Positions 5,249-21,624 of a stretch of DNA of 22,962 nt are shown piece by piece. Under the pieces are notes generated by a model that saw only the letters and a list, made by a program, of their open reading frames with translations, was not told the DNA's origin and ran no database searches. Numbering within the stretch: position 1 is the first letter of the stretch; each line of letters opens with the position of its first letter. The translations under genes were made by a program, and so were the position numbers. This stretch comes from a virus, in the IMG/VR virus record IMGVR_UViG_3300007512_000214, positions 1 through 22,962 of that record. One strand, written 5' to 3'.

Positions 5249-5857
5249 ATGGGAGCATTATCAAAATTTGGTGTCCCTACAGGCGACGGCGGCGCAGTAA
5301 TAATGCCAAAACTATCGTATAGGTTTCGGGTTACTTTTAATAATATAGGCGGACAAACTAATTCAAAAGCATTAACACATCAAATTGTTAGTGTAACCAG
5401 GCCTACATTAAGCCATGAACCGATTACTTTAGATGTATATAATTCTAGAGTTTATTTGGCAGGTAAACATACATGGGAACCTATCACTATTGTAGTAAGA
5501 GACGATGTAGACGGAGAAGTTATTTCTTTTGTAGATAAACAGGTACAAAATCAGATTGATCATAATGATCAATCTGCACCATTAGCAGGAGCCCAATATA
5601 AATTTTCAACAGTCATAGAAACTCTCGACGGTACAAATGTAGCCAATGAAGCTGGTACATTAGATACATGGACTTTATCTGGTTGTTTTATTACCAATGT
5701 AGGTTATGGCGAAAATGATTATGCAAATAGTTCGCCTATGACAGCTTCGATGACAATTCAATATGACAATGCCAATCATTTGGATAAGAATGATGCTAAC
5801 TTGTTATCAGGTATTAGTATATCAGATACTGACCTTACTGGTGCTACATCAGGATAA
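5249..5857 (+). CDS. 19: Tail tube protein, gp19-like
   Basis: This 202-residue protein fits the tail tube subunit (T4 gp19 is 163 aa), whose hexameric rings form the DNA channel inside the sheath. Visible family features are an early beta strand (LSYRFRVTFNNIGG), a segment ending in SVTRPTLSHEPITLDVYNSR, then KHTWEPITIVVRDDV, and a C-terminal WTLSGCFITNVGYGENDY followed by a strand with the MTIQYDN ending. The position straight after the sheath matches the conserved 18-19 order. AGGAG lies about 8 bases before the ATG. The gene contains a 25-base near-perfect inverted repeat. Confidence 0.88.
   Translation: MGALSKFGVPTGDGGAVIMPKLSYRFRVTFNNIGGQTNSKALTHQIVSVTRPTLSHEPITLDVYNSRVYLAGKHTWEPITIVVRDDVDGEVISFVDKQVQNQIDHNDQSAPLAGAQYKFSTVIETLDGTNVANEAGTLDTWTLSGCFITNVGYGENDYANSSPMTASMTIQYDNANHLDKNDANLLSGISISDTDLTGATSG
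5552..5576. repeat. 25-base near-perfect inverted repeat inside gene 19
   Basis: CAGATTGATCAT (5552-5563) and ATGATCAATCTG (5565-5576) are perfect reverse complements around a single A. The repeat contains two GATC sites. It encodes the QIDHNDQS segment of the tube protein and is the longest intragenic inverted repeat I noticed. Confidence 0.85.
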
Positions 5858-5876
5858 TTCATGAATAGGAGTTAAA

Positions 5877-6821
5877 ATGGCATATTTCGGTAAGGTTCTC
5901 CGTAACTATGCCGATATGGCCTTTGGTACTGTTACGGATTATAACAGAACATTAACAGATGTACCTCGGCTTAAATTCCAATTTGTAGTAGAATTTAAAA
6001 CTACATTAGGTATAGGAGGCGGAGATAAGAACTATAGAGAGATGATAAAAGATTTATCATTAGTGGTTCAATCCGTCGAATTACCTAGTTTTCAATTTGA
6101 TACCCAAACATTAAACCAATATAATAGAAAACGAATTATACAAACAAAAATGAATTGGAATCCTATTAGTATTTCTTTTCATGATACCAGAGATAATAAA
6201 TGGTTAAATGTTTGGAAAGAATATATGAAATTTCACTATAAAGATGGAAGAGAAAAGTTTTCTAATTTTGGTGCAGGGAACCTAACACCTGATATTGTTC
6301 AAGTAGAGCCTAACATAGACGATTTTGGTTTTCAAACACCGTTTTCAAAAACTAGTATAGCAAATCCTGATTTAACAAATGTAAATTCTTCTCCTGGAGA
6401 TACACAAGGTGCATTAGAACCAGAAGAAGAAATGGGAGCAGGGGAAGTGCAGGTTGGAGGAGCCGGATGGGAAAAATATTACTTTTCACAAATTAAAATT
6501 TATAAACAATTCGGCGGAAGAAATGGTCCTATTGCAGATCCTATAACATTATATAATCCTGTAATTTTATCGGTAAATAACGATTCATTATCTTATGCAG
6601 ATTCAAGTCCTGTGCAATGGAGTATACAATTTGGATATGAAGGTGTATCATATGATAAATCAGTGGTTCCTAAGAATAGTTATACAAGCATGTGGGCCAG
6701 TGCCCAAGATACAGTAACAAGCTGGTTTGGTGATGACGGATCACAAAGCGGAGAAACTCCTGTAGGCGATAGTACTTTAGTATCAGATAACTTTGGAGCA
6801 GGCGATCCTGAGGTGTTATAA
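5877..6821 (+). CDS. Second tail-tube-fold protein (gp19/gp54 type)
   Basis: The 314-residue product repeats the tube-protein layout of its neighbour. It has a strand (RLKFQFVVEFKT), a segment VVQSVELPSFQFDTQTLNQY that parallels the gp19 'SVTRPTLSHEPITLDVYN' region, then KMNWNPISISFHDTRDN. A C-terminal strand pair follows (NNDSLSYADSSPVQWSIQFG). A Gly/Glu-rich insertion separates the halves, roughly residues 150-200. In T4, gp54 shares the tube fold and initiates the tube on the baseplate, and its length (about 320 aa) is similar, so this may be a gp54-like initiator or another tube paralogue. AGGAG precedes the start, and it probably shares the late message with gene 19. The downstream gene overlaps its stop (TAATG). 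Confidence 0.72.
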   Translation: MAYFGKVLRNYADMAFGTVTDYNRTLTDVPRLKFQFVVEFKTTLGIGGGDKNYREMIKDLSLVVQSVELPSFQFDTQTLNQYNRKRIIQTKMNWNPISISFHDTRDNKWLNVWKEYMKFHYKDGREKFSNFGAGNLTPDIVQVEPNIDDFGFQTPFSKTSIANPDLTNVNSSPGDTQGALEPEEEMGAGEVQVGGAGWEKYYFSQIKIYKQFGGRNGPIADPITLYNPVILSVNNDSLSYADSSPVQWSIQFGYEGVSYDKSVVPKNSYTSMWASAQDTVTSWFGDDGSQSGETPVGDSTLVSDNFGAGDPEVL

Positions 6822-7216: not shown

Positions 7217-7659
7217 TGGCTAGAAAAAGTCATAAGTTTAAGCAAGGATATTTTCAGCCAAAAAATCCTAATAAATATCGAGGCAAGCATGTTCCTATTT
7301 ATAGATCAGGATGGGAATTAGCATTTATGCGACTATGTGATGATCATCCAAATGTAGAATGCTGGGCATCTGAAAGTCACCAAATACCTTATCGTAATCC
7401 TTTTACAGGCAAAATTACACGATACATACCAGATTTTTTATTATCATATGCAGATAAAAATGGTAAAAAACACATAGAACTTGTGGAAGTTAAACCTAGT
7501 AAGCAAGCAGGCATTACAGAATCACGTAGTAGAAAAGACAAAGCCGCGGTTATATTAAATAAAGCAAAATGGGCCGCTGCACAAGAATGGTGTAAACGTA
7601 GAGGAATTAAATTTAGAATAGTAACAGAAAATGAAATATACCACAAACCACAAAAATGA
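7216..7659 (+). CDS. 4: Head-completion protein, gp4-like nuclease fold
   Basis: The 147-residue protein matches T4 gp4 (150 aa), which acts on the filled head before tail joining. The family has a TnsA-type endonuclease fold. Visible features are YRSGWELAFMRL with a conserved Glu near residue 34, the strand CWASESHQIPYRNPFTGKI, RYIPDFLL with Asp about 73, and LVEVKPSKQ with Glu 91 and Lys 93. Together these form the E-D-ExK set of PD-(D/E)xK nucleases. A late helix (AAAQEWCKRRGIKFRIVTE) is also typical. An AATAAATA at 7192-7199 could serve as an extra late start, but it lies in the upstream coding region. The stop overlaps the gp16 start (ATGA). Confidence 0.88.
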   Translation: MARKSHKFKQGYFQPKNPNKYRGKHVPIYRSGWELAFMRLCDDHPNVECWASESHQIPYRNPFTGKITRYIPDFLLSYADKNGKKHIELVEVKPSKQAGITESRSRKDKAAVILNKAKWAAAQEWCKRRGIKFRIVTENEIYHKPQK

Positions 7660-8355: not shown

Positions 8356-8898
8356 ATGAAAAGATTTGAGCAATACCTAGCTGAATCAGAAAAAGAGTAT
8401 GCTTTTAGGCTTAGATGTGCATGTGACTTAACAGAAGATTATATGGACAAAATAGAAAATAGACTTAAAAAGTATGAAGCATTTTCTGTATCGGCTCCTA
8501 AAAAAACTATGTTTCAATCTGCACCTCCTGGTTTTAACCATTTGTCTGGAGCAGAAGTTAATATAGTAGATTTTAAAACAAGAATGCCGGTAGCCCCACA
8601 TGTATTGCTCCAAGATATCATAGAATGTTCTAAGTTACCCGAAAGCCATGTTAGAGTTTCAAATGCAAATGAACCATTAGAGGAAGAATTTGAAACACCG
8701 GAAGAACCAACAGGTGCAATTTTAGAACAACCATATGAAGAAGTAGATAATAGTCATTTATATGGTCCTAAATTAATAGGTAATCTCTTAGGAGATTTGG
8801 CAAAAGAAGCTCGTAAATTAGAATTTGCAAAACCAATAGAAAATATGCCAGAATCTGTAGCAACAGAAGATGGCACTAAAAGCCCAGTAGGAAGTTAA
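8356..8898 (+). CDS. Probable head/internal protein with capsid-targeting-like N-terminus
   Basis: The 180-residue product begins MKRFEQYLAESEKEYAF. This resembles the capsid targeting sequence of T4 internal proteins (MKTYQEFIAE type), and the LAE fits the L/I-x-E cleavage consensus of the gp21 prohead protease. The rest contains a basic helix, a TRMPVAPHVLLQDIIE segment and an acidic, Pro-rich tail with many Glu. No enzymatic motif is visible. It lies between the terminase subunits under the late promoter at 8166, and the next gene starts two bases later with AGGAAG. An internal or scaffold-core head role is inferred; it could instead be another virion component. Confidence 0.78.
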   Translation: MKRFEQYLAESEKEYAFRLRCACDLTEDYMDKIENRLKKYEAFSVSAPKKTMFQSAPPGFNHLSGAEVNIVDFKTRMPVAPHVLLQDIIECSKLPESHVRVSNANEPLEEEFETPEEPTGAILEQPYEEVDNSHLYGPKLIGNLLGDLAKEARKLEFAKPIENMPESVATEDGTKSPVGS

Positions 8899-8899
8899 A

Positions 8900-9289
8900 A
8901 TGGAAATAAAACCAGAAGAATTATCCCAATTAATGCAATTAGCAGGTATTTCACATCAACCAGAACAAGAGCCAGTCGCAGTTGCTATATCGGCTGAGGA
9001 TAATATATCCGATAGTAATTGTAGTAATACTTCAACAATGCGGGGTTTGTTAGATGCCTTAAACGCCGACGAACCTGAAATTGAAGAAGAAATTGAAGAA
9101 GAAACCGAATGGGAAAATGCTTCTAGAGATTTTAGTAAATCAGCACATCCAGTACAAAATAATTATGATGATTTTTCATATCATCCCGCTAAAAATCACA
9201 TGCAACGTAGAACAAACGGATACGGTGACAATCCATTGCGTGAAGAAGAGTTAATCAAAGAATACACTGAGTTCAAAAAAAAAGACTAG
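8900..9289 (+). CDS. N-terminal (0-frame) part of a probable frameshift protein
   Basis: This frame gives 129 residues and stops at TAG 9287-9289, just after an A9 run. The N-terminus (MEIKPEELSQLMQLAGI) carries an LxxLAGI motif also seen in two other proteins of the block. The middle is acidic (EIEEEIEEETEWE) and the end is LIKEYTEFKKKD. SD-like AGGAAG precedes the ATG. The -1 frame is open from 9271 right across the A-run and on to 10974 and has no start codon of its own, so most likely this is the front of one 691-residue protein made by a -1 slip. The 129-residue form would be the unshifted product. Function unknown; probably structural. Confidence 0.75.
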   Translation: MEIKPEELSQLMQLAGISHQPEQEPVAVAISAEDNISDSNCSNTSTMRGLLDALNADEPEIEEEIEEETEWENASRDFSKSAHPVQNNYDDFSYHPAKNHMQRRTNGYGDNPLREEELIKEYTEFKKKD

Positions 9290-9311
9290 ACGAATTTAGT
9301 TGGAGGCAACT
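9275..9311 (+). other. Candidate -1 frameshift site with downstream hairpin
   Basis: Nine A residues (9275-9283) are read in the 0 frame as three Lys codons, giving an A AAA AAA slippery heptamer. The -1 frame has a TGA at 9268-9270 and the 0 frame stops at 9287-9289, so the overlap is only 9271-9289 and centres on the A run. A small hairpin follows: AGTTG (9298-9302) and CAACT (9307-9311) around GAGG. A one-base homopolymer error or mutation in a single gene would look the same. Confidence 0.65.
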
Positions 9312-10974
9312 TCTACCACAAAATTGGGGTAAAAACGAAGAAGAAGTAGATCTTCAACAAAAAGTAGATGCCCTCAAAGACGCCGGTAAAACAGATTCAT
9401 ATGCATTCAAAAAATTAAATAAAAATTTAGAAAGATTAATACGACGTAGAGAAAAGAAAGGTCATGGTTGGTCTGGTGTCGATAAAAAAATCGGCGATCT
9501 AGTTCGACCTGCAGCTAATGCTGCAGAAGAAGAATGGAGAGCTTATAAAGAGAAACGAGACCGACGGGAAAAAGCAGATAATAAAGAACAACAAGATAGA
9601 GATAAATTATTTACAGCCGCAATGGGAGATGTTGATAAACAACTTGCAACAACGGGTGTAGAACCACTAGATAATCAAGGTAGTAAAGTATCTGTAGAGA
9701 AACCAACTGCTAAAGATCTATATGCCGCAAGAAATCAAGAAGGTATTGCATCGTATAATGCCTTATTTGATAATCCGGGTAAACTTAAAAAAACTTTATT
9801 AGCATATCAAAAAGCATATAACGCAGGTGACTTCAACGCACAAAACGATATAGTAAAAGCCAATCCTGAAATAAGAGGATTGCTCGACAATAATTATAGA
9901 GATATTGTATCGGACAAAGGCGATTATAGCGATGTTCGACATACAGATATTGCAATGCCTGTACGAAGATGGTTGTCAGGCGAAAGAGATATAAAATCAT
10001 TAGTAAGTAACTTTGATAAAAGTTTTACAAAATTAGGTATTGAAAATAATATTAGAAAGTACGAACCATCTAAGCCTGAACGTGATCCTTCTATTTTAAG
10101 AACCAATGATGATGAGGATACACAACCTGCATCAATGGGTGTAGAACTAGGAGATCCAAATCCAGAAATTAAAACAATAATTCCTGGCAAGACCATGGAT
10201 CAAGCAAAGCGAGATGCAGAAGAAAACCGTAGATATGAAATGGCAATAGCAAAGTTTAAACGATCTGGCAATATAAGCGATTTATCAGATAATTCAAACA
10301 TGAGCGATGCCCTTCGAGCTAGATTAAAAAATGCCCGAATAGCATTAAACAGAGCAACAAAAGGTAATGACAAAGCAGGGTTCGATTCAGATCTTGAACA
10401 TGAGAGAACAACCGATCCTGAACATGAGAGAACAACCGATCCTCGATACAGAGATCATAAAACTCTTAGAAGTGCATCTCCGGTCTATACACCAATAGCA
10501 AGCACATCTAAATATGAACCAGAAGATACAGACTATTTAGATACTAGCTCAACCAGGCCTGTAAATTATAGTAAACAAGACATTAAAAGATTGTCTAAAC
10601 TTGCTAGTGCAGGAAAAGCAGCCACATACGCAAAACCTAAACCTAAAAAAATATCTACCGCATTAAAAGAGCCAAGAAACCTAGGTAGTTATTTTACCCA
10701 AAAGGGAGGTTCTAATCAGCCAGCAACATCTAAAAGTTTAAGTTCTAATGTTCTTAATACCCCATCTAGTCAAAAAGCAATGGGGTTAGGAAGTAATAAA
10801 CAACCAACAACTAAAGGTTTAACCAAAGGTGCAAATAGTGGTATTTCTAATATGTCAAGCAGCGGAAAGAATACATTTTTAAATTTAGATAAAAATGACT
10901 ATACAATTCCTCCTTTTAATAGAGAGAAAGCATTGAAAAAAATACCTAAAGGCAACAAACAAGATTATATCTAA
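9280..10974 (+). CDS. C-terminal (-1 frame) part of the probable frameshift protein
   Basis: Counting from the slip, this frame encodes about 564 residues. The first ATG in frame is 9622, but it has no ribosome binding site, and about 340 bases of open, protein-like coding sequence lie before it (starting RLDEFSWRQLLPQNWGKN). There is no ATG, GTG or TTG between 9271 and 9622. The product is charged and low in hydrophobics. It has helical Lys/Glu/Arg-rich stretches, a tandem EHERTTDP repeat, and a Ser/Asn/Lys/Pro-rich C-terminus resembling unstructured internal head or scaffold proteins. It ends two bases before the gp17 start. No family is recognised; translation by -1 slippage from the gene at 8900 is the simplest reading. 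Confidence 0.75.
   Translation, partial: KRLDEFSWRQLLPQNWGKNEEEVDLQQKVDALKDAGKTDSYAFKKLNKNLERLIRRREKKGHGWSGVDKKIGDLVRPAANAAEEEWRAYKEKRDRREKADNKEQQDRDKLFTAAMGDVDKQLATTGVEPLDNQGSKVSVEKPTAKDLYAARNQEGIASYNALFDNPGKLKKTLLAYQKAYNAGDFNAQNDIVKANPEIRGLLDNNYRDIVSDKGDYSDVRHTDIAMPVRRWLSGERDIKSLVSNFDKSFTKLGIENNIRKYEPSKPERDPSILRTNDDEDTQPASMGVELGDPNPEIKTIIPGKTMDQAKRDAEENRRYEMAIAKFKRSGNISDLSDNSNMSDALRARLKNARIALNRATKGNDKAGFDSDLEHERTTDPEHERTTDPRYRDHKTLRSASPVYTPIASTSKYEPEDTDYLDTSSTRPVNYSKQDIKRLSKLASAGKAATYAKPKPKKISTALKEPRNLGSYFTQKGGSNQPATSKSLSSNVLNTPSSQKAMGLGSNKQPTTKGLTKGANSGISNMSSSGKNTFLNLDKNDYTIPPFNREKALKKIPKGNKQDYI
10396..10443 (+). repeat. 24-base perfect tandem duplication
   Basis: Two identical 24-base copies (10396-10419 and 10420-10443) encode EHERTTDP twice. 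The identity at DNA level points to a recent duplication in a probably disordered part of the protein. Confidence 0.9.
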
Positions 10975-10976
10975 TA

Positions 10977-12536
10977 ATGAGTGCAAAGTTTGATACAACC
11001 CTTGTAAAACGTCCACATCAATCTGAAAAGTATACCAACGAAGAAATACAAGAACTTGCAAAGTGTATACAAGACCCTATATATTTTATAGGCAACTATT
11101 GTAGTATTCAGCACCCTACTAAAGGCAGAGTAAAATTTGATCTATTTGGCTATCAAAAAAGATTAATAGAAACATATAATAATTATAGATATGCAATAGC
11201 ACTTCTTCCTAGACAAACAGGAAAGTCTACTGCGGCTGCAGCATATTTGTTATGGTATGCTATGTATAAACCTGACTCTGTTATATTAATTGCGGCACAC
11301 AAATACGCAGGGGCCCAAGAAATAATGCAAAGGCTACGTTATATCTATGAAATATTGCCTGACTTTGTACGTGCAGGTTGTACAAGTTACAATAAAGGAT
11401 CTATAGAGTTTGATAATGGTTCACGTATAGTTTCACAAGCAACAACAGAAACTACCGGACGGGGTATGAGTTTAACACTCATTTATTTAGACGAGTTTGC
11501 ATACGTACAACCCCGTATAGCAGAAGAGTTTTGGGCTGCATTATCTCCTACACTATCAACCGGTGGTAAATGTATTATTACTAGCACACCAAATCAAGAT
11601 AATGATCAGTTTGCACAAATATGGAAAGCGGCAATAGATAATACAGATGATTTTGGTAACGAACAAGAAATAGGCAAAAATGGATTTAAAGGGTTTACAT
11701 GTCATTGGAGCGAACATCCAGATAGAAATCAAAAATGGGCAGATGAAGAAAAGGCAAAAATAGGAGACGAGCGTTTCAGACGAGAGCATGGATGTGAGTT
11801 TATTACTGCTGACGAAACACTAATTAGTCCGTTAAAACTTGTATTATTAGAACATAAAGATCCTGTACGCAAAACAGGACAAGTTCGTTGGTTCTCGGAA
11901 ATTAATAAAAACTCTACATATTTTATAGGATTAGATCCGTGTATAGGTACAGGTAGTGACTTTAGTGCCATTGAAGTTTTCAGTATGCCAGGTTTACAAC
12001 AAGTAGCAGAATGGAAACATAACAAAACAGATGTACGTAGTCAAATGTTAATATTACAAGGTATATTACAAGATATTTACGACGAAACAAAAACTGAAGA
12101 AAACATTTATTTTAGTTTAGAAAATAATGGTATAGGTAGAGCATCTATACAATCATTAGAAGAATTAGGTAGTACCAATTTTTATGGTAATTTAGTTAAT
12201 GAACCCAAAAATAATAGAACTTTTCGGTTTACAAAAGGATTTACTACAACATTAAAAAGTAAATTAGAAGCATGTAGTAGACTAAAATACTTTATAGAAA
12301 ACGACAAAATTAAAGTATATAGTAAAAATTTAATACAAGAATTAAAGACTTTTGTAGCTAGAGGCAGAGGTTTTGAAGCAAAAGATGGCGAACATGACGA
12401 TTTAGTTATGGCTTTGGTGTTATGTGTACGAATTATTGATCAAATTACCAAACACGACGAAGATGCATTTAATGAATTAATAGATCCTCTTAGTATGGAC
12501 CCTGTCGATATGCCCATGCCAATTGCCTTAATCTAA
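10977..12536 (+). CDS. 17: Terminase large subunit, gp17-like packaging motor
   Basis: The 519-residue protein is the DNA-packaging ATPase-nuclease (T4 gp17, 610 aa). Motifs appear in order: Walker A LPRQTGKS at residues 77-84, Walker B LTLIYLDE at 166-173 with the catalytic Glu, coupling motif TSTP at 202-205, then the RNase H-like nuclease with Asp 320 in FIGLDPCIGTGSD, Glu 382 in FSLENN, and the Asp pair 474-475 in GEHDDLVMAL. These match the D-E-D metal site of gp17. It is shorter than T4 gp17, mainly at the ends. The start at 10977 follows the preceding stop by two bases, so it is probably coupled to the frameshift gene upstream. It drives ATP-powered DNA entry into the prohead and cuts the concatemer. 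Confidence 0.96.
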   Translation: MSAKFDTTLVKRPHQSEKYTNEEIQELAKCIQDPIYFIGNYCSIQHPTKGRVKFDLFGYQKRLIETYNNYRYAIALLPRQTGKSTAAAAYLLWYAMYKPDSVILIAAHKYAGAQEIMQRLRYIYEILPDFVRAGCTSYNKGSIEFDNGSRIVSQATTETTGRGMSLTLIYLDEFAYVQPRIAEEFWAALSPTLSTGGKCIITSTPNQDNDQFAQIWKAAIDNTDDFGNEQEIGKNGFKGFTCHWSEHPDRNQKWADEEKAKIGDERFRREHGCEFITADETLISPLKLVLLEHKDPVRKTGQVRWFSEINKNSTYFIGLDPCIGTGSDFSAIEVFSMPGLQQVAEWKHNKTDVRSQMLILQGILQDIYDETKTEENIYFSLENNGIGRASIQSLEELGSTNFYGNLVNEPKNNRTFRFTKGFTTTLKSKLEACSRLKYFIENDKIKVYSKNLIQELKTFVARGRGFEAKDGEHDDLVMALVLCVRIIDQITKHDEDAFNELIDPLSMDPVDMPMPIALI

Positions 12537-12565: not shown

Positions 12566-14269
12566 ATGGCAGTAAATAATAATATTATAGCACATGATTT
12601 ATTTAAGACAATTAAAGGTTTTAATTTAAATGTTCAATTGTTTAATGAAGATGGTAAACGGGTAATAGATCCTGCTGAAGCAAGAAAGTTTTATGCTACA
12701 GATAAAAAATTTATGGTTACATATGAATCAGACGAAGATCCTCAAAGTATAAAAGTTTACTTTGGTAAAAATTTTACACTTGACGAAGGAGGAGATTTTC
12801 CGTACAATAAATTTATTAAACAAGTTAGGAATTTAGCACATAGAAAAAATGCAATAGATTTTACTGTTAAAAATTACGGCAAAGAAATTCAGCCTAAGGA
12901 TTTTGCATACCAAGCAATAAATAGGAACGCAGATATGGGAAACATAGCAGAAGGTTTATCACCAGCATACGGGTCGAGTAAATCTAGTTATCAAACATTA
13001 GACAACGCAAAGTTAGTTATACGGCATAACAAGCCAGTAGACGAAAGTGCTCGAGGGTCTCGAGCAAGAAACATTACTGCATTATTTGTAGAAAATAGTG
13101 CCGGTGAACGTTTTAAGTATCCATACAATCATTTGGCAGCCGCAAGAGCAATGACACGGCATGTCGCAGAAGGCGGAACGCCATATGATAATATTGGCTC
13201 ATATATTACAAAACTTTCAGAAGAAAGTTTAGGGTTAACTAAATTTATGCGTTATTCTAAATCAAATGGTTTAATGAATGAAGATACAGAACCAGTTATT
13301 GGTGGTATTAAAACACGATTAAATCAAGTTAGAGAATCATTAAAGCGTATGTCTACACACAAAGGGTATGCAAGTGTGGTAGAAACCTTAGGTGAAACTA
13401 AAAAAGAGTTAGACGAAGAGTTAGTAACAGAACTTAAAGATAAGTTTACAGTAGTACGATTTGACGAGGACATGGAATCAGTTCTTCCGTATGTTGCTAG
13501 GATAGTATCTGAAATGAATAATTCAAATAGAATATCAGAAACCTACAACGAGTTCAAAGAGGCAATCAGCAATGCTGGAGAAATTCAAGTGCAAATGGTA
13601 GAGGATGATCATCCAGAAAATCCTGCTAATTTAGCATTCGATAGTGTAACGAAGAAGAATCAGCATATTATTAATTTTATGGCAGAGCATATTGTAGATG
13701 AGAATATTCAAACATTGATGAAGCAGGTAGCAGTAGATTATCCAAGATATGACGTGCCTATGAAAAATGAGTCATTGGCATTAGTGAAATCTATTATGGA
13801 AACAGGACAAACTCCTGTTGCTGAACAGCCTGAGGCTCCAATGGAAGAAACATTTGTAGATGAACTCGACGAATCACTTAGTAAGTTTGCAAGTAATGAT
13901 ATCTTTTTTGAAAAGGGACATCCTCATCATCAAAGTCACAGGCACTGGCACATAGCCAAAGTTCAATCAGATGATAAGCTAAACAATATCTCTCCTAACA
14001 ACGACTCGGCAGAAGGATTTGGAATAGATGCATCGGTAGGTGTAAATAAACTTCTACCTAAAGCTAAAGGTGACATGTCAACTAAAGGTAACATAGCACC
14101 TAAAAGTAAAATGAGTACAATGGCACCTAAAAGTAAAATGAGTACAATGGCACCAACACCAAAAAAGAAACAAGATGATTCAGAATGGCGAAACATGACC
14201 TTAGCGAAAAACGAATCTAAGAGTGAAGTAGACGAAACCATTTTAAAACTCGCAGGGGTATACAAATGA
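12566..14269 (+). CDS. Large unknown, probably structural protein (567 aa)
   Basis: This 567-residue protein has no recognised enzymatic motif. The N-terminal ~220 residues look globular (FNLNVQLFNEDGKRVIDPAE, and a region around GERFKYPYNHLAAARAMTRH). A helical middle follows. Near residues 451-462 is a His-rich cluster (GHPHHQSHRHWH). The C-terminal ~110 residues are Lys/Ser/Met/Pro-rich with a tandem 9-residue repeat, ending in ETILKLAGVYK, a variant of the LAG(I/V) motif found at the start of two other proteins here. Position between gp17 and gp32, under a late box, suggests a conserved virion or assembly protein of marine T4-like phages. Its stop overlaps the next start (ATGA). Confidence 0.8.
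   Translation: MAVNNNIIAHDLFKTIKGFNLNVQLFNEDGKRVIDPAEARKFYATDKKFMVTYESDEDPQSIKVYFGKNFTLDEGGDFPYNKFIKQVRNLAHRKNAIDFTVKNYGKEIQPKDFAYQAINRNADMGNIAEGLSPAYGSSKSSYQTLDNAKLVIRHNKPVDESARGSRARNITALFVENSAGERFKYPYNHLAAARAMTRHVAEGGTPYDNIGSYITKLSEESLGLTKFMRYSKSNGLMNEDTEPVIGGIKTRLNQVRESLKRMSTHKGYASVVETLGETKKELDEELVTELKDKFTVVRFDEDMESVLPYVARIVSEMNNSNRISETYNEFKEAISNAGEIQVQMVEDDHPENPANLAFDSVTKKNQHIINFMAEHIVDENIQTLMKQVAVDYPRYDVPMKNESLALVKSIMETGQTPVAEQPEAPMEETFVDELDESLSKFASNDIFFEKGHPHHQSHRHWHIAKVQSDDKLNNISPNNDSAEGFGIDASVGVNKLLPKAKGDMSTKGNIAPKSKMSTMAPKSKMSTMAPTPKKKQDDSEWRNMTLAKNESKSEVDETILKLAGVYK
14096..14149 (+). repeat. 27-base perfect tandem duplication
   Basis: Two identical 27-base copies (14096-14122 and 14123-14149) encode APKSKMSTM twice. 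A partial third start follows (APTPKKK) and a degenerate copy precedes it (MSTKGNIAP). Confidence 0.9.
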
Positions 14270-14904
14270 TTCCTAATATTAAGAATGAAAATGATTTAAG
14301 AAAATTAGCAGGAATTCCTATTAAAGAAGATCCTTTTGATATTCCGCCCGATGACGACGATGAAGCAGAAGATTGGGGTGCACCAAGTAAACCAAGCGGA
14401 AGTTTAGATAATATTCTTGCTAAACATAGAGAATCATTTGAATCTGTAATGCGGGGAGAATCTGCATTATACGATCATAATGAGTTCTTTGACGAGTTAT
14501 ACGAATATTATGTTAATTCAGGCGAAATGCCATATGGTATTGCTAAAGCAAGAGATGGCGACCCTGACCAATGGATTCAAGAAGAACTAGATCGTGAATA
14601 TGGTGATGATTTTGCTACTGACGATGTACCCGATTCAATGGATGGGGATTTTGATTCAGGTATGGCTTCGGCTGGTATGGGCACCGATGAAGATTATGGC
14701 TATTATGGTGAAGGTACAGAACTAACTTTTAAAGAACAATTAAAAATGGTTCAAGAAGGTGGCACATACATGGGAGATGATGCATACAAGTCTTTGGAAA
14801 AGAAAGCATCAGATAATCCAGACGGGTATAAAAAAATGCCTGAATGGTTGCGAAAAGCCCATGTAGAGGCTAAAGCTCGCAGAAAAAAGCAAAAAAAGAC
14901 TTGA
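14266..14904 (+). CDS. Unknown acidic protein with LAGI motif, 212 aa
   Basis: The 212-residue protein starts inside the previous stop (ATGA), so it is co-translated with the gene upstream. The N-terminus NDLRKLAGIPIKEDPF contains the LAGI motif and an I-K-E that would fit the T4-type prohead protease consensus. A run of Asp (DDDDEAEDW) follows. The middle is acidic and Gly/Met-rich. The C-terminus is a strongly basic helix (AHVEAKARRKKQKKT), giving the protein opposite charges at its two ends. No family is recognised. Its stop codon TGA (14902-14904) lies inside the -35 element of the gp32 promoter. Confidence 0.78.
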   Translation: MIPNIKNENDLRKLAGIPIKEDPFDIPPDDDDEAEDWGAPSKPSGSLDNILAKHRESFESVMRGESALYDHNEFFDELYEYYVNSGEMPYGIAKARDGDPDQWIQEELDREYGDDFATDDVPDSMDGDFDSGMASAGMGTDEDYGYYGEGTELTFKEQLKMVQEGGTYMGDDAYKSLEKKASDNPDGYKKMPEWLRKAHVEAKARRKKQKKT

Positions 14905-21111: not shown

Positions 21112-21624
21112 ATGTTGTTATTTGATGATATATTAACTCTTGACGAACTAGAATTTTATTCAAATAACATACTACAAGAAAATACCGAACCTTATATATT
21201 TGATAAAACCAAAAAACCTAAAAATTTGCAAGAAGAGCTAATATTAAAAATATTTAATGAAAAATTGAATATGATGCATATTGCTAATTTTATTGAATAT
21301 TGGATAAACACAAATGACAAAGATCATAATGAATATTACCATATAGATAAAAACGAGTTATTATTAGAACAAAAAAATATATTATCTGTACCATTATATA
21401 GTGCCGTAATGTATTTATGGAAAAATAATATACAAGGAGGATACTTACGTATATACGAAGGACCAACTAAAACAGAATATTATGAAAAAATAAAACCTGT
21501 TCAAAATAGATTATGTATTTTTGAAGGTGGATATACTTTGCATGGCGTAGAAAAAATTTATAGTGGTATTAGATGTTCATTGGCAATAAGCTTCTGGGAA
21601 GAAAAACCATTATTTTATGAATAA
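21112..21624 (+). CDS. 2-oxoglutarate/Fe(II)-dependent oxygenase
   Basis: The 170-residue protein has the metal-binding triad and co-substrate residue of the 2OG-Fe(II) oxygenase superfamily. His 77 and Asp 79 lie in YYHIDKNE, the distal His 144 in YTLHGVEKIY, and Arg 154 in SGIRCSLAISFW. Between them lie the core jelly-roll strands (LSVPLYSAVMYLW, GGYLRIYEGPT, NRLCIFEGGYTLHG). Such genes are common in marine T4-like phages; substrates could be proteins or DNA and cannot be told from sequence. One sampled 60-base stretch (21121-21180) is only about 23% G+C, poorer than the replication genes. Its end overlaps the next gene by eight bases. Confidence 0.85.
   Translation: MLLFDDILTLDELEFYSNNILQENTEPYIFDKTKKPKNLQEELILKIFNEKLNMMHIANFIEYWINTNDKDHNEYYHIDKNELLLEQKNILSVPLYSAVMYLWKNNIQGGYLRIYEGPTKTEYYEKIKPVQNRLCIFEGGYTLHGVEKIYSGIRCSLAISFWEEKPLFYE

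Follow-up and report, generated by a model that had tools for sequence, protein, structure and literature searches.

A conserved run of nine adenines in a gene beside the terminase of marine T4-like phages probably gives rise to a short protein and a C-terminally extended form

Next to the terminase gene of a T4-like phage, an open reading frame of 129 codons ends just past nine A residues, and a second frame, displaced by −1, continues from the same point for several hundred codons. Is this one gene with two products, one gene broken by an error, or two genes? The question was addressed in the window, which is the whole 22,962-nt stretch of DNA analysed (IMG/VR virus record IMGVR_UViG_3300007512_000214), and in relatives (L numbers) gathered via TerL, N-domain and DNA-pattern searches. 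The locus has the following features.

8356–8898, plus strand: upstream neighbour, matching phrog_14802, 'virion structural protein'
8900–10974, plus strand: entire putative recoded gene; predicted long form of 691 aa (128 aa from frame 0 and 563 aa from frame −1)
8900–9289, plus strand: short-form frame (frame 0), 129 aa, acidic N-domain, with LMQLAGI close to the N-terminus and YGDNPLREEELIKEYTEFKKK at the C-terminus
9271–9289, plus strand: overlap of the two frames, 19 nt, the sole stretch permitting a shift
9275–9283, plus strand: A9 slip site, with the heptamer A AAA AAA at 9277–9283 in frame-0 register, followed by G
9283–10974, plus strand: −1 frame extension, 563 aa after the slip, basic, with low predicted order
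9298–9311, plus strand: hairpin AGTTG-GAGG-CAACT, 5-bp stem, beginning 14 nt after the slip site
10977–12536, plus strand: downstream neighbour, TerL (gp17)

An earlier note on this DNA had described a frame from 8900 that ends at 9289 just past nine A residues, and inspection base by base bears this out: the last residues are EYTEFKKKD, followed by a TAG stop at 9287–9289. The −1 frame is, as claimed there, closed upstream by a TGA at 9268–9270, open from 9271, and terminated by a TAA at 10972–10974; the gene adjoins gp17. The 19-base overlap does contain the A AAA AAA heptamer, in register, and the earliest start codon of the −1 frame is indeed the ATG at 9622, 339 nt beyond the slip site. 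The junction region of the predicted long form reads FKKKRLDEFSWR.

From the junction, the −1 frame is open for 563 codons, compared with a mean of 14 and a maximum of 114 in 5000 Markov simulations. About 0.0016 runs of at least nine A residues are expected within the 19-nt overlap. The A9 is the sole A-run of nine or more in the window; because about two such runs are expected by chance across the whole window, its length by itself is unremarkable. Its remarkable features are its position and its conservation.

According to the earlier note, conservation of a split frame with an A-rich junction would favour a programmed event. Such a junction, TTC-A9-GAY-TAR, was found in six distinct split sequences (window/L001, L002/L138, L097, L012–L014, L099 and L016) belonging to two clades of the N-domain tree. 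Specifically, the junction TTCAAAAAAAAAGAYTAR with a continuing −1 frame is present in L002/L138, L012–L014, L099 and L016. A long −1 frame follows the junction in five of the six sequences, and the contig of the sixth, L097, ends 14 nt further on. Every A-run family member found has exactly nine A residues in the context TTC-A9-G, and scans for A10 or A8 in the same sequence context turned up no family member. Neither A10 alleles nor a family of uniformly intact homologues devoid of the run, either of which that note would have held against its reading, appeared in the assembled sequences. Two hallmarks by which recoding is judged are thus present: a slip-prone site within the frame overlap (A AAA AAA G and A9, in 19 nt), and retention of both site and split in divergent relatives.

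L002 and L138, the latter from a separate MAG assembly, align without gaps across 6977 nt and differ by 8 substitutions (99.9% identity); L137 and L098 are 97–99% identical, with gaps. All four keep A9. The window and L001 are identical across 7159 nt and were therefore counted once. Much of the assembly-level support for conservation is not fully independent. The N-domain tree is poorly resolved, with a long window branch and a clustered 'split' label, so the number of independent origins of the split is uncertain. L137 (CAJIZS010000002.1) and L138 (NZGL01000011.1) are MAG contigs whose bins are labelled Methylophilaceae and Gammaproteobacteria, which is a weak host hint or a binning artefact.

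A third hallmark is coding constraint on the downstream frame. Pairs of distinct members from the L013/L099/L016/L098 clade have dN/dS values of 0.36–0.70 in the extension frame, and within the same clade third codon positions change most; constraint is therefore evident in the L013 clade and weak in the window/L002 pair. The latter has a dN/dS of 0.81 and no third-position excess in a 93% identical block, which indicates that this extension evolves fast; it nevertheless retains 563 (window) and 392 (L002) open codons despite large indels. The near-identical L013/L014 pair has a dN/dS of 0.95, based on few changes. Complete extensions of the other split phages are 95–392 aa long. All 15 sequences, whether split or in-frame, combine an acidic N-domain (pI 4.1–4.8) with a basic extension (pI 8.4–11.4), a contrast that supports coding but does not prove it, because Lys is frequent in every frame of A-rich DNA. 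By these comparisons, the −1 extension is coding.

Other relatives carry the gene in other states. In L098, L102 and L137, A9 is present and the extension follows directly after it in frame 0. This extension aligns lengthwise with the −1 extensions of L099 and L016, and all five share the C-terminal end PGYKSxLRRRQEAxxRNQ. An in-frame extension without A9 occurs in L117–L120, L011, L125–L127, L005, L132, L133, L135 and L136; in-frame counterparts of the 691-aa form are found in L098/L137, L017/L118, L011 and L005. L009/L010, L128–L131, L123 and L124 lack the extension and end about where the short form does. Thus, the short form is complete in some phages and the long form is a single reading frame in others. 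In L013/L014, a 229-codon frame sits between the extension and TerL, and their extension ends early (SRELQGFN) relative to that of L099, as if trimmed by an insertion.

On this evidence we consider it probable, at roughly 0.83, that the conserved A9 junction lets one gene encode a short protein and a C-terminally extended form by slippage. Recoding that would give these two forms is well supported by the comparisons, which show, at the level of sequence, that the slip site, the split frame and the coding of the tail are conserved; that slippage occurs, and with what efficiency, we infer. In this scheme, normal reading of the gene would give the 129-aa acidic protein, and a minority event at A9 would shift reading by −1 and append a basic, fast-evolving tail, 563 aa long in the window. 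By analogy with T7 gp10A/gp10B or lambda gpG/gpGT, the short form would make up the bulk and the long form would be a minor, tail-bearing version. Either the ribosome would slip on A AAA AAA G, or RNA polymerase would insert an extra A or skip two. The earlier note had claimed a programmed −1 ribosomal frameshift. A programmed event joining the frames agrees with the conserved split and A9 and with the frame-0 relatives; for the ribosome as the agent, as against transcriptional slippage, the odds are about even.

A −1 shift by the ribosome on A AAA AAA G is thus a tentative reading. The heptamer is perfect and in register, and the frame-0 stop lies just downstream, an arrangement seen at known shift sites; in E. 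coli dnaX, ribosomal shifting results from tRNA-Lys pairing (PMC5009743). L013 and L099 have in common a small hairpin just past the slip site. The hairpin that the earlier note had pointed out at 9298–9311 does exist, but it has a stem of only 5 bp, is confined to the window and differs from the hairpin of L013/L099. A conserved stimulatory hairpin or Shine–Dalgarno-like element, which is common at recoding sites though not required, was sought across lineages and not found, folding being different between lineages; the lack of a stimulator kept across clades counts against the ribosome. So does, as weak evidence, codon choice: ribosomal shifting would tolerate, at the third Lys, the codon AAG, which accounts for 26% of Lys codons in the window, but all A-run members use AAA AAA AAA.

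Slippage of RNA polymerase at A9, which would produce mRNAs with extra or missing A residues to be read normally, has the same tentative standing. The invariant nine A residues match the length at which bacterial RNA polymerase slips efficiently, since runs of nine A's or T's are described as efficient slippage sites in PMC5009743. In each of the seven junctions tested, both non-extension frames close no more than 8 codons after A9, as described for Thermus dnaX (PMC5009743), and polymerase slippage would fit the absence of a conserved translational stimulator. On the other hand, the all-AAA run may simply mirror AT-rich codon use (34.8% GC).

We regard it as improbable that the run is instead a contingency locus, mutating between A9 and A10 in the population so that the long form is turned on or off in the DNA itself. 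Homopolymers are mutable and related lineages alternate between in-frame and split states, but only A9 was seen in assembled contigs, which show the major allele only, and in L098/L137 the extension is in frame while A9 is kept, not through A10. Still less probable is a local indel or a sequencing or assembly error in a gene that is truly a single intact frame. Such an error would fit the proneness of long homopolymers to error and the in-frame extension of some relatives; it is opposed by the six distinct split sequences with A9, by strain-level differences between some assemblies, and by the failure of the A10/A8 scans to find a family member. Least probable is that a short protein is followed by an independently started one, for which the ATG at 9622 could serve in the window, because more than 230 nt after the slip lack a start codon in the window (339 nt) and L002 (234 nt), leaving no plausible separate gene start, and because the only nearby starts of L013, L099 and L016, GTG or TTG, vary and precede A9, and fused relatives align through the junction.

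Within the reading as one gene with two products, L098/L137 raise a further point. Their long form lies in frame 0, so slippage at their A9 would yield the short product. The run in these phages may be a relic, or it may likewise be there to provide two products, with the opposite default. A broader proposal is that a virion-type family keeps exact A9 in order that slippage by RNA polymerase supplies the short form as well as the tail-bearing one in every case, the default being the short form in most A9 phages and the long form in L098/L137; this is possible but on balance unlikely.

What might the protein do? The window contains a series of matches to T4-like families (PHROGs/Pfam): a head-tail adaptor (start 1469), sheath (2318), tube-like proteins (5249 and 5877, spanning 5249–6821), a head closure homologue (7216) and a RecA-like gene (16068); a gp32-like gene (15016) gave a weak match below the curated cut-off. 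The gene at 7656, whose sole match is phrog_16202, of unknown function, is presumably gp16-like, judged from its position. The nearest annotated relatives of TerL are in jumbo phages, e.g. Pseudomonas phage PA5oct, at ~52% identity. Lying between TerL and the gene for a virion protein, the putative recoded gene may well encode a protein of the virion or of its assembly. Pfam and PHROGs gave no convincing family for the short form, the extension or the fused relatives, and tblastn with both halves and two relatives, together with blastn of the region, found nothing among annotated phages. A portal-protein match for L005 (E 0.007) was judged spurious, and weak Xanthomonas tail-fibre matches over the extension (E about 0.1) were attributed to chance. 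PA5oct gp281, an annotated structural protein detected by ESI-MS/MS, also adjoins TerL. The resemblance is limited to an LRLAGV N-terminus plus a GDNAL stretch and is too slight to establish homology, hhalign having aligned 18 columns at 15% probability. AlphaFold gave a mean pLDDT of 45.3 for the window extension and 49.5 for the L098-type fused protein, so no fold can be assigned to the latter; its model is mostly of low confidence and places short helices at LAG and GDNPL motifs.

A motif of LxKLAG[VI] type occurs at a terminus of both proteins after TerL. Specifically, the protein encoded at 12566–14269 ends in ETILKLAGVYK and that at 14266–14904 starts with NDLRKLAGI, resembling the LMQLAGI start of the short form; the L117 long form ends in LKILAGI. 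That LxxLAG-type motifs constitute a shared docking element is speculation. A 2OG-Fe(II) oxygenase domain lies at 21112–21624 of the window (PF13640, E 9.7e-9). In L029, a methyltransferase-like frame and another unrelated frame (6001-1389 to 6001-15) precede TerL, indicating that this slot is variable in wider relatives.

Known systems resemble the locus in part. In the coat shifts of T7 (gp10A/gp10B), T3 and Listeria phage, as is proposed here, the shift falls near the end of a structural gene and gives a C-terminal extension, and the frameshifted extension differs between the related T3 and T7 (PMC5009743). The base protein there is a coat protein, whereas the window protein belongs to no recognised family and neither the short form nor the extension has a family match that would mark a major capsid protein; the T7 gene 10 slip site is of the G_GU type (same source), in contrast to A9. 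Lambda gpG/gpGT, to which the earlier note had likened the gene, has the same layout, one short form and one extended, but the window gene differs from a tail-assembly chaperone in locus, neighbours and protein type. The gpG/gpGT gene adjoins the tape-measure gene, whereas the window gene lies between a virion-protein gene and TerL and not between major tail and tape-measure genes: the order is tube-like proteins, head-closure homologue, further genes, recoded gene, TerL. Neither half matches a chaperone family in Pfam or PHROGs. T4 is named as an exception to G-T frameshifting in PMC5009743, and T4-like phages use another mechanism according to a later paper cited in PMC10885494. In dnaX of E. 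coli and Thermus thermophilus, as is predicted here, an A-run at a Lys stretch gives two isoforms. L098-type phages resemble Thermus dnaX, with the long form in frame 0 and the other frames closed within 8 codons (PMC5009743); the dnaX protein is unrelated, and in the window it is the long form that would require the shift. The open-access titles and abstracts searched on recoding in T4-like, jumbo and other phages do not report this gene.

The predicted 691-residue protein would be missed by ordinary gene calling, and the locus would add a recoded gene beside the packaging terminase of marine T4-like phages. Its exact A9 offers a clean test between ribosomal and polymerase slippage. If the proposal of a swapped default were true, a virion gene would make its two isoforms by slippage, with a default state that differs between relatives. 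Because the family includes split, in-frame, inverted and extension-free states, these can be compared directly, and the evolution and purpose of short and long isoform pairs in phage genes become testable.
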